A stretch of DNA of 64,000 bases from Streptomyces sp. NBC_01267 (GTDB lineage Bacteria > Actinomycetota > Actinomycetes > Streptomycetales > Streptomycetaceae). The stretch is from NCBI RefSeq assembly GCF_036241575.1, contig NZ_CP108455.1, positions 868,001 to 932,000 of the forward strand, written 5' to 3'. Of the stretch, positions 4,314 through 5,602 are shown in pieces. Made by a program: the position numbers and the translations under genes. Below the pieces are notes generated by a model, which did not search any database, was not told where the DNA came from, and was given only the letters and a program-made list of their open reading frames with translations. Position 1 is the stretch's first letter. The number at the start of each line of letters is the position of its first letter.

Positions 4314-4583
4314 TCACCGCTCTCGGTGTTCCGCCGCGATCCCGAAGCGCCCGCGTTCGCCGGGAGCGGACGTGACCGGGTGGACCGAGGACACCGCACT
4401 GGTCACCTGTTCCTCGGCCGCCTCCCGCATGCTTTCGAGTCGCTCCAGGTCAGCGGCGGAGACCAGGGCCACGAGCGGCTTGCCGTGCCGCGTCACCACC
4501 ACCCGCTCCCCGCCGTAGACGACACGGTTGATCAGCTCGGCGAGCTCTGCCCGGGCTTGCGTCACCGGAATCTCATAGGCCAT
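4314..4583 (-). CDS. orphan YefM/Phd-family antitoxin
   Basis: An 89-aa prevent-host-death type protein. The N-terminal DNA-binding and dimerisation part ([20 protein letters not shown], then [20 protein letters not shown]) matches the family closely. The last 30 residues are disordered-looking, as expected for the toxin-binding tail. No RelE/YoeB toxin follows: the next 209 nt on this strand reach tap without an open frame of that kind, so it is an orphan. It faces a ClpP-like gene across about 70 bp that holds two TGTAC repeats resembling YefM operators. The ATG at 4583 is used; in-frame ATGs at 4592 and 4595 are also possible. Confidence 0.85.
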
Positions 4584-4602
4584 GCTCCCCATCATAACGG
4601 CC

Positions 4603-4617
4603 TGTACGTCCTGTACA
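4603..4617. promoter_or_regulatory. YefM-type TGTACA operator candidate
   Basis: Two direct copies, TGTACG (4603-4608) and TGTACA (4612-4617), sit in the divergent region between the antitoxin and the ClpP-like gene and are followed by an AT-rich run. Studies of the E. coli YefM-YoeB pair describe operators with a TGTACA core, so autoregulation by this antitoxin is a reasonable inference. The same site could also control the clpP-like gene. Confidence 0.5.
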
Positions 4618-4653
4618 TTTTTTACAGAGGCGTCATCCGAGGAGAGGTATGCC

Positions 4654-5286
4654 ATGCACCGGCCTTCCGCCCGCCACGTCCTCCCTGAGTTCACCGAACG
4701 CACCAGTTCCGGGAGCCGCACCCTCGACCCGTACTCCAAACTGCTCGGGGAACGCATCGTCTTCCTGGGGACCGCTGTCGACGACACCGCGGTCAACGAT
4801 GCGATCGCGCAGTTCCTGTATCTGGAGTACGACTCCCCCGACCAGGACATCTCGCTGTACATCAACTCCCCCGGCGGCCCGGTCGACGCGATGACCGCGC
4901 TCTACGACACGATGCAGGCCGTTTCCTGTGACATCGCGACGTTCTGCCTGGGGCAGGCGGCGTCGACGGCGGCCGTACTGCTGGCCGCGGGCGCCCCCGG
5001 TAAACGCACGGCGCTGCCGGGGGCGCGGGTCGTCGTGCAACAGCCCGCCTTCGACGAACCGGTGCAGGGTCAGCTGTCCGATCTGGACATCCACGCCCGC
5101 GAGTTGCTCAGGGTGCGAACGGTGGTGGCGGACCTGCTGGCACGTCACACCGGGCAGTCCGCGGACCGGATCGCGGCCGACATCGAGCGGGACCAGGTGT
5201 TCGACGCGGCCCGAGCCCGGGAGTACGGACTGGTGGACCAGGTGCTGGACAGCCGTAAGCAGTCCGCCGCCGGGCCCGGCAGGTGA
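4654..5286 (+). CDS. ClpP-like protease subunit with catalytic His replaced by Gln
   Basis: A 210-aa ClpP paralogue (S14 fold). The fold is clearly intact: [18 protein letters not shown] (oxyanion strand) and EYGLVDQVL. The catalytic Ser104 is present in GQAASTAAV and the catalytic Asp180 in IERDQVF. The position of the catalytic His, normally in I-H-Q-P, reads VVVQQP, so residue 129 is Gln (codon CAA at 5038-5040). It is therefore probably inactive or a non-catalytic ring partner for another ClpP. GGAGAGG lies upstream of the ATG at 4654. The gene is followed 7 nt later by a 102-aa gene, suggesting translational coupling, and faces a YefM-like antitoxin. A mutation or sequencing error at one codon cannot be excluded. 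Confidence 0.88.
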
Positions 5287-5293
5287 ATCGCCC

Positions 5294-5602
5294 GTGCTGC
5301 CGCCCGAGTTGCCACCGCTGCCCGCACTCACCCGCGCCGAGGGCCGGCTCATCGACAACTATCTCGAGGTGGTCGATCAGTTGGGGCGCATCAATCCGGC
5401 ACACGGGGGTGACACCTACAGCGCGCTCCGCGCGGCGCAGGCGCTCGCCGGCCGTGCCGTTGCCCTGCGGGACGCCCTGACGCTGATGCACCAGCGCGGC
5501 GAAAGCCGTCTGCACGCCGAAACTCTGGTCCGCGCACTGCTGGTTCTGGACGGCGAGCGCAGGACCGGGCGCGTCACCGTGCCCCGGGCCACCGCCGGCT
5601 GA
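5294..5602 (+). CDS. hypothetical 102-aa protein coupled to the ClpP-like gene
   Basis: The GTG at 5294 starts 7 nt after the ClpP-like stop codon, with AGGTGA in front, so the pair is likely translated together. The product begins with a Pro-rich segment (LPPELPPLP) followed by predicted amphipathic helices (LTRAEGRLIDNYLEVVDQL, then LRAAQALAGRAVALRDAL and LHAETLVRALLVLDGE). There is no signal peptide, membrane span or cysteine. I do not recognise a family. Its position suggests a partner, adaptor or regulator of the ClpP-like subunit, but this is inference. Codon use is typical of the neighbourhood. Confidence 0.6.
   Translation: MLPPELPPLPALTRAEGRLIDNYLEVVDQLGRINPAHGGDTYSALRAAQALAGRAVALRDALTLMHQRGESRLHAETLVRALLVLDGERRTGRVTVPRATAG

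Follow-up and report, generated by a model that had tools for sequence, protein, structure and literature searches.

Results

The window, that is, the whole stretch of DNA analysed (64,000 nucleotides), belongs to an 8.07 Mb Streptomyces genome whose ClpP set consists of two clpP pairs and one single gene, the latter located in the window (Table 1). On the minus strand, a tap-like hydrolase gene and a yefM-type gene precede a gap of 70 bp that contains a candidate operator and separates the divergent start codons of yefM and clpP. On the plus strand, clpP is followed by P0003 and by a gene for an NlpC/P60 protein, and the genes beyond are presumably bioF, bioB and bioA homologues. The tap-like gene on the other flank of yefM encodes a tripeptidyl aminopeptidase-like hydrolase (PF08386), and Pfam and NCBIfam profiles revealed no toxin of a known family beside yefM, its neighbours being tap, clpP and P0003. 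No biosynthetic cluster is found at the window locus; tap, NlpC/P60 and bio-like genes lie there instead. If the TATGAT hexamer is the -10 element of yefM, its transcript would be near-leaderless.

Table 1. Genes, codons and putative regulatory elements of the yefM-clpP-P0003 locus (window positions).
Feature	Position	Strand	Remarks
yefM/phd-type gene P0002	4314..4583	-	89 aa; PF02604 E 2e-14, TIGR01552 E 4e-17
Possible -10 of yefM, TATGAT	4591..4596	-	read from sequence
Paired TGTAC candidate operator, CTGTACGTCCTGTACATTTTTTACAG	4602..4627	.	two TGTAC cores 9 bp apart
clpP-like gene P0001, very probably clpP5	4654..5286	+	210 aa; PF00574 E 5e-64
Ala89 codon, third hydrophobic-pocket position	4918..4920	+	Phe/Tyr in sampled ClpP2 and triad-intact ClpP5
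Ser104 codon, TCG	4963-4965	+	catalytic Ser kept
Codon 129, CAA (Gln)	5038..5040	+	catalytic His position, from the sequence
Asp180 codon, GAC	5191-5193	+	catalytic Asp kept
P0003, helical protein	5294..5602	+	102 aa; GTG start 7 bp past the clpP stop

P0001 matches PF00574 with 216 bits (cut-off 20.2), its AlphaFold model reaches a pLDDT of 84.6 and a pTM of 0.79, and the nearest solved sequence is Mtb ClpP2 (E 2e-68). Judged by its sequence, the protein is ClpP2-like. It is very probably the Streptomyces ClpP5, an assignment that relies on its being the fifth, unpaired clpP and not on the S. lividans sequence. Its triad reads S104-Q129-D180 and thus lacks the Ser-His-Asp signature of an active protease. 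A sequencing error at codon 129 is unlikely, as an identical protein is encoded in a same-species assembly (G382, L037) and the SQD state occurs in other species too. The sequence-only reading of this DNA had described a ClpP fold with Ser104 and Asp180 kept and Gln replacing the catalytic His, an orphan YefM/Phd protein, a divergent gap with TGTACA-type repeats and a coupled 102-aa helical protein; all of these features are borne out, codon 129 being CAA on re-reading. The same reading knew of no description of the arrangement. This does not apply to the gene itself, which is very probably the ClpP5 already in print (PMC9765437), but the three-gene layout was not found described in the open-licence literature.

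The partner protein P0003 is predicted to form three helices (residues 14-33, 41-67 and 75-93) and its structure model is of moderate confidence (pLDDT 71.3). It matches no family, and no toxin family, in Pfam (at the cut-offs) or NCBIfam. A known fold could not be assigned, as no PDB match reached E < 0.001, and the PDB profile search returned designed miniproteins only (E 0.015 and 0.03).

Repeated loss of the catalytic triad in Streptomyces

The 165 full-length loci collapse to 153 distinct proteins, comprising 148 ClpP5 of the chromosomal type and five linked to polyketide synthase (PKS) genes. An intact SHD triad is present in 43 of the 148 distinct ClpP5 and broken in 105, so that the definition of ClpR, a ClpP homologue without catalytic triad, applies to the window protein and 104 others. 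The broken states are diverse (SRD 18, SQD 14, SRL 14, AHD 7, GRD 7, AQD 7 and many rarer ones among the 148), with Ser replaced by A, G, P or F, His by R, Q, E, S or D, and Asp by L, T, P, E, V or G, among others. As 43 of the 148 keep SHD, loss of the His is ruled out as a fixed trait of the family. Homologues with an intact His, which the sequence-only reading had named as evidence against its proposal, do exist, yet they are outnumbered by those with a broken triad.

On a tree built with the triad columns removed, the distribution of intact and broken proteins requires 10 changes with unordered states and 11 losses when regain of the triad is disallowed. The broken proteins fall into clades of up to 65 members, the next largest having 16, 9 and 6. 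The ClpP5 clade itself (SH-aLRT support 96) is sister to ClpP2 plus the PKS-linked group in this tree, which contains no ClpR. As a control, ClpP2 keeps SHD in 24 of 24 sampled proteins. In ClpP4 (G000:C1:7417050-7417634, L003/L004; L251-L267), Gly replaces the catalytic His in all 18 Streptomyces sampled (17 SGD, 1 SGE), which makes it, by its sequence, a second and apparently inactive ClpP2-type subunit. ClpP2 and ClpP4 were told apart by identity rank and, in the window genome, by which member of a pair each gene is and by Ser as the first pocket residue, rather than by comparison with a named sequence.

When the set was enlarged to 250 distinct loci, the triad was intact in 65 and broken in 157, and 28 lacked a usable ClpP5 ORF, leaving 222 usable. 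The 28 are not a random fraction, because 12 of them are weak loci that were fetched on purpose, and three (L061, L194 and L333) may be cases of a single stop or frameshift or assembly errors.

Linkage of the three genes

Of 392 Streptomyces genomes, 328 contain a match to P0003, in a few cases a weak remnant, and the other 64 contain none. Among 80 named loci found through P0003, 77 are from Streptomyces, and in 78 a ClpP gene lies upstream of P0003 on the same strand at a distance of 6-187 bp; 73 of those 78 also have a divergent YefM, and the two loci without usable ClpP (L067 and L098) still have YefM. ClpP5 of S. lividans has been named as a monocistronic gene (PMC9765437). The same-strand arrangement in 78 of the 78 named loci with a ClpP match speaks against this, with the qualification that these loci were found through P0003. 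As most loci were collected in this way, any that have ClpP5 but lack P0003 are under-represented. In a sample collected through ClpP first, in which ClpP5 and ClpP2 were split by score (>=257 versus <=243 bits), presence of ClpP5 and P0003 is concordant in 35 of 37 Streptomyces genomes. The discordant genomes are G010, with a ClpP5-like protein and yefM but no P0003, and G016, with a PKS-type P0003 and a remnant but no ClpP5. Furthermore, 19 of the 20 listed among the 64 P0003-less genomes have no ClpP above the ClpP2 level, G010 being the exception. The expectation that the three genes stay together thus holds for most Streptomyces loci.

Outside this genus, P0003 relatives occur in six genomes of four further genera (137 genera sampled), with L385 and L386 being partial matches. 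Parafrankia colletiae (L382) possesses the complete trio, with an SHD triad, TGTAC motifs and an RFGI tail in YefM. Three relatives from another actinobacterial family (L381, L383 and L384) have no ClpP within about 7 kb, which means that P0003 is not tied to ClpP everywhere; in L381 and L384, it sits between what we take to be a LysR-like and a GNAT-like gene.

A related gene set was observed next to PKS genes in five of the 392 Streptomyces genomes (L176-L179, L218-L221), S. platensis and S. glebosus among the species. Here, the gene opposite yefM is thioesterase-like, and behind it come clpP, the gene of a P0003 relative (44-51% identity) and a PKS-like ORF. The PKS-linked YefM is associated with the same paired motif and carries an FGL tail in five of five cases. 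The ClpPs of these loci have intact triads and are grouped, at a support of 99, with the window genome's ClpP2 rather than with ClpP5; hence YefM and P0003 accompany two ClpP lineages. In G088, the only PKS locus subjected to a Pfam scan, KS-AT-KR and KS-AT-DH-KR proteins are followed by an NRPS C-A-PCP protein and a thioesterase. The PKS gene set is a candidate producer of a ClpP-directed compound.

The candidate TGTAC operator and the YefM tail

Of 126 orthologous loci whose yefM-clpP gap measures about 20-130 bp (111 distinct gap sequences), 124 contain the hexamer TGTACA in the gap and 84 contain TTTTTTACAG. TGTAC occurs at 21.7 per kb in the gap, compared to 0.78 per kb over the whole of the same loci. 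Within the host genome, the exact pattern TGTACNTCCTGTACA is found at the window site only. A wider YefM regulon was considered and rejected, as a search allowing up to two mismatches gave 28+33 matches versus 28+26 for the reversed-pattern control, with no second exact site.

The operator keeps its place near clpP even where yefM sits farther off. The median distance from the end of the operator to the clpP anchor is 64 bp in 152 loci with a short spacer and 60 bp in 25 with a long one, and spacer length tracks the operator-yefM distance (r 0.99), as opposed to the operator-clpP distance (r 0.23). An operator match is absent in four of 181 loci.

YefM ends in a conserved C-terminal tail, RFGIAAEHR. 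Its F80 and G81 show no variation among the 130 orthologues, of 134 with a YefM match, that could be aligned over the tail. Both elements persist where the triad is broken: the operator as strictly written is kept in 128 of 145 broken loci, and the FG of the tail in 145 of 146 broken and 52 of 52 intact loci. In loci that have lost ClpP5, the tail is altered to FDI, FDV or YDI in three of 11 readable cases (L046, L067 and L182), compared to 0 of 197 elsewhere (Fisher p 1.1e-4). The unreadable remnant L302 was dropped from this test, and 40 of the 250 loci have no testable tail; L058, in which a ClpP5 ORF is present and the tail ends early at RRRF, was left out, and counting it as a loss gives p 4.3e-4. 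These values overstate the true support for the association, since the loci have common ancestry and L046 and L067 have operator-flank letters in common.

Constraint and decay

Fewer positions of ClpP5 are nearly fixed where the triad is lost: 62 positions are conserved at >=97% in the 105 broken proteins versus 90 in the 43 intact ones. The pocket residue Tyr69 is nevertheless retained in 104 of the 105, as is Arg179, which lies beside the often-lost Asp. The third pocket aromatic (position 89) is F or Y in 43 of 43 intact proteins and in 62 of the 105 broken ones. In the remaining 43 of the 105, including the window protein with its Ala89, ATPase docking may be impaired too, because this aromatic is gone. 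Among independent pairs, the association of pocket-aromatic and triad loss is not significant, the pairs being too few.

According to pairwise NG86 medians (130 loci, non-independent pairs, binned by ClpP dS), dN/dS of ClpP5 is 0.21-0.32 for intact and 0.35-0.47 for broken pairs, meaning that broken ClpP5 evolve faster. The corresponding values are 0.12-0.25 for P0003 whatever the triad state and 0.14-0.31 for YefM. P0003 thus shows the strongest constraint among the three genes, and does so irrespective of the triad state. A near-full P0003 ORF persists in 17 of the 28 ClpP5-null loci, and YefM plus the operator are also kept in some of these, e.g. L046, L067, L098, L129, L193 and L313. The inverse of this usual order of decay was seen in L158/L175 (G248) and L146/L162 (G175), in which P0003 is in pieces and ClpP5 aligns without a stop.

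Discussion

With these observations in mind, we tentatively favor the view that the locus is a conserved YefM-controlled cassette made up of a ClpR-like, non-catalytic Clp subunit and its accessory protein P0003. The YefM-type protein would repress the clpP5-P0003 operon by binding to the paired TGTAC operator of the clpP5 promoter, and would also repress itself where the operator abuts yefM. In Streptomyces, ClpP1 supplies the catalysis and ClpP2 S131A is fully active (Reinhardt et al., PMC9765437), and the ClpP2 pocket formed by S94, Y96 and Y116 docks the ATPases (PMC9765437). A ClpP2-type copy may hence be free to lose its triad and keep a structural or docking role, which would explain why ClpP5 has lost it time and again and why ClpP4 uniformly has Gly at the His site. 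ClpP5 would then act as a non-catalytic partner in mixed Clp particles, as ClpR does in plastids and cyanobacteria, with P0003 as its probable dedicated accessory protein. More speculatively, the RFG[IL] tail of YefM may contact ClpP5, in the position in which the tail of an ordinary antitoxin grips its toxin, and the level of free ClpP5 or P0003 could thereby feed back on repression. Given that some species have this gene set, with an intact copy of the ClpP2 type, next to PKS genes, a likely occasion would be stress on the Clp core, e.g. by natural products directed at ClpP. The proposal of an antitoxin-type regulator controlling an altered Clp subunit plus a small partner thus stands as the best-supported layout, with an operator that keeps its place; loss of the His is not constant across the family. 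Its premise that YefM is a classical Clp substrate is weak: a Streptomyces YefM expressed in E. coli was stable only without Lon (PMC6521030), while a RelB from Streptomyces was reported to be degraded by co-expressed ClpPs (PMC4989188).

A bolder version, which we regard as quite unlikely, places a pseudo-ClpP in the seat of the toxin. The YefM tail would dock onto ClpP5 and sense the Clp particle, and a ring of ClpP5 and P0003 would re-aim or restrain the housekeeping Clp protease; catalysis could have been discarded at least ten times because such a ring acts by binding, not by cutting. The IGF loop of Clp ATPases is a hydrophobic-Gly-hydrophobic element, which RFG[IL] resembles.

The pattern of loss might also reflect nothing but relaxed selection, ClpP5 being a dispensable ClpP2 duplicate in decay and its neighbours being carried along for other reasons. 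We consider this main rival reading somewhat unlikely as a full account, although relaxed selection may underlie part of the pattern. Indeed, broken ClpP5 evolve faster and have fewer fixed positions, the third pocket aromatic is lost only among them (43/105 versus 0/43), and the loci form a decay series from broken triad via pseudogene to clean deletion, with P0003 absent from 64 of 392 genomes and ClpP5 gone too in 19 of the 20 of these listed. Ala89 in the window protein likewise speaks for relaxed selection, or else for a role without ATPase docking. However, the ORF is usable in 222 of 250 distinct loci, including the broken clade of 65 members, the dN/dS medians of broken pairs are well below 1, Y69, R179 and 60 other positions are nearly fixed, and the operator (128/145) and the YefM tail (145/146) are kept in broken loci, in which the constraint on P0003 is unchanged. 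An involvement in self-protection against ClpP-directed natural products, as a spare or decoy ClpP whose inactive versions block ADEP-type activation of ClpP1, appears unlikely to us. It would account for the five genomes in which yefM, an intact clpP and P0003 adjoin PKS genes (PKS-NRPS in G088), and has precedents in clpP genes located in or beside clusters for ClpP inhibitors (PMC13386464) and in ClpP_ADEP, which blocks ClpP1 tetradecamers and pairs with ClpP2 (PMC12607617). The chromosomal locus, on the other hand, lies beside tap, NlpC/P60 and bio-like genes and not in a biosynthetic cluster, and ClpP_ADEP is reported to be most similar to ClpP1 (PMC12607617), in contrast to the ClpP2-type ClpP5 and PKS-linked copies.

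The autoregulation-type operator of a YefM-family protein and the persistence of near-full-length P0003 in 17 of 28 ClpP5-null loci, several with YefM, could be taken to mean that YefM serves as antitoxin to a toxic P0003, in which case ClpP5 would be incidental or would degrade YefM. This is very improbable, as P0003 has no match among the toxin families of Pfam and NCBIfam and its gene diverges from yefM instead of lying downstream of it, and the tail Gly is changed in ClpP5-less loci (3/11), two of them with an intact P0003, as if ClpP5 were the partner of the tail. We give hardly any credence to the idea that the Gln129 form is still a protease, be it by an altered mechanism or with a residue borrowed from a neighbour; Ser104 and Asp180 are retained in the window, but every one of the three triad residues is missing from some other members of the clade, with no consistent substitute.

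Returning to the favored cassette, the sequence comparisons suggest that ClpP5 is now a control or docking part rather than a protease, and they provide an evolutionary reason to expect a non-catalytic role. New for ClpP5 are a linked partner, P0003, and a candidate operator, mapped here, for what is probably a switch of the YefM type. If true, a single genus would provide a natural series of ClpPs that turned from active to inactive independently of one another, a protein of an antitoxin family would have been co-opted to govern a protease subunit, and there would be a tie to biosynthetic loci at which ClpP is a possible target.

Among the closest known systems, ClpP5 of S. lividans is likewise the fifth, unlinked ClpP of a Streptomyces genome with five; the accessible part of PMC9765437 gives no function, partner gene or regulator for it, whereas P0003 is linked here. 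ClpR of cyanobacteria, plastids and apicoplasts is likewise a triad-less ClpP homologue next to active ClpPs, and plant ClpR has accessory ClpT proteins (PMC7966870), to which P0003 may be likened. Unlike in ClpR, a single genus has lost the triad repeatedly and contains both active and inactive orthologues, and an accessory gene and a YefM regulator are genetically linked to ClpP5. ClpP_ADEP of S. hawaiiensis is an extra ClpP that modulates the ClpP1P2 core, as ClpP5 might by analogy, but it is encoded near the ADEP cluster, is reportedly most like ClpP1 and forms a proteolytically active complex with ClpP2 (PMC12607617). Finally, the locus shares with YefM-YoeB a YefM/Phd-family protein and a paired TGTACA-type operator; E. 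coli YefM binds paired TGTACA motifs 12 bp apart (PMC3920265). At the ClpP5 locus, the cores are 9 bp apart, there is no toxin of the YoeB/RelE type, the operator lies by a divergent clpP, and the YefM tail carries RFG[IL].
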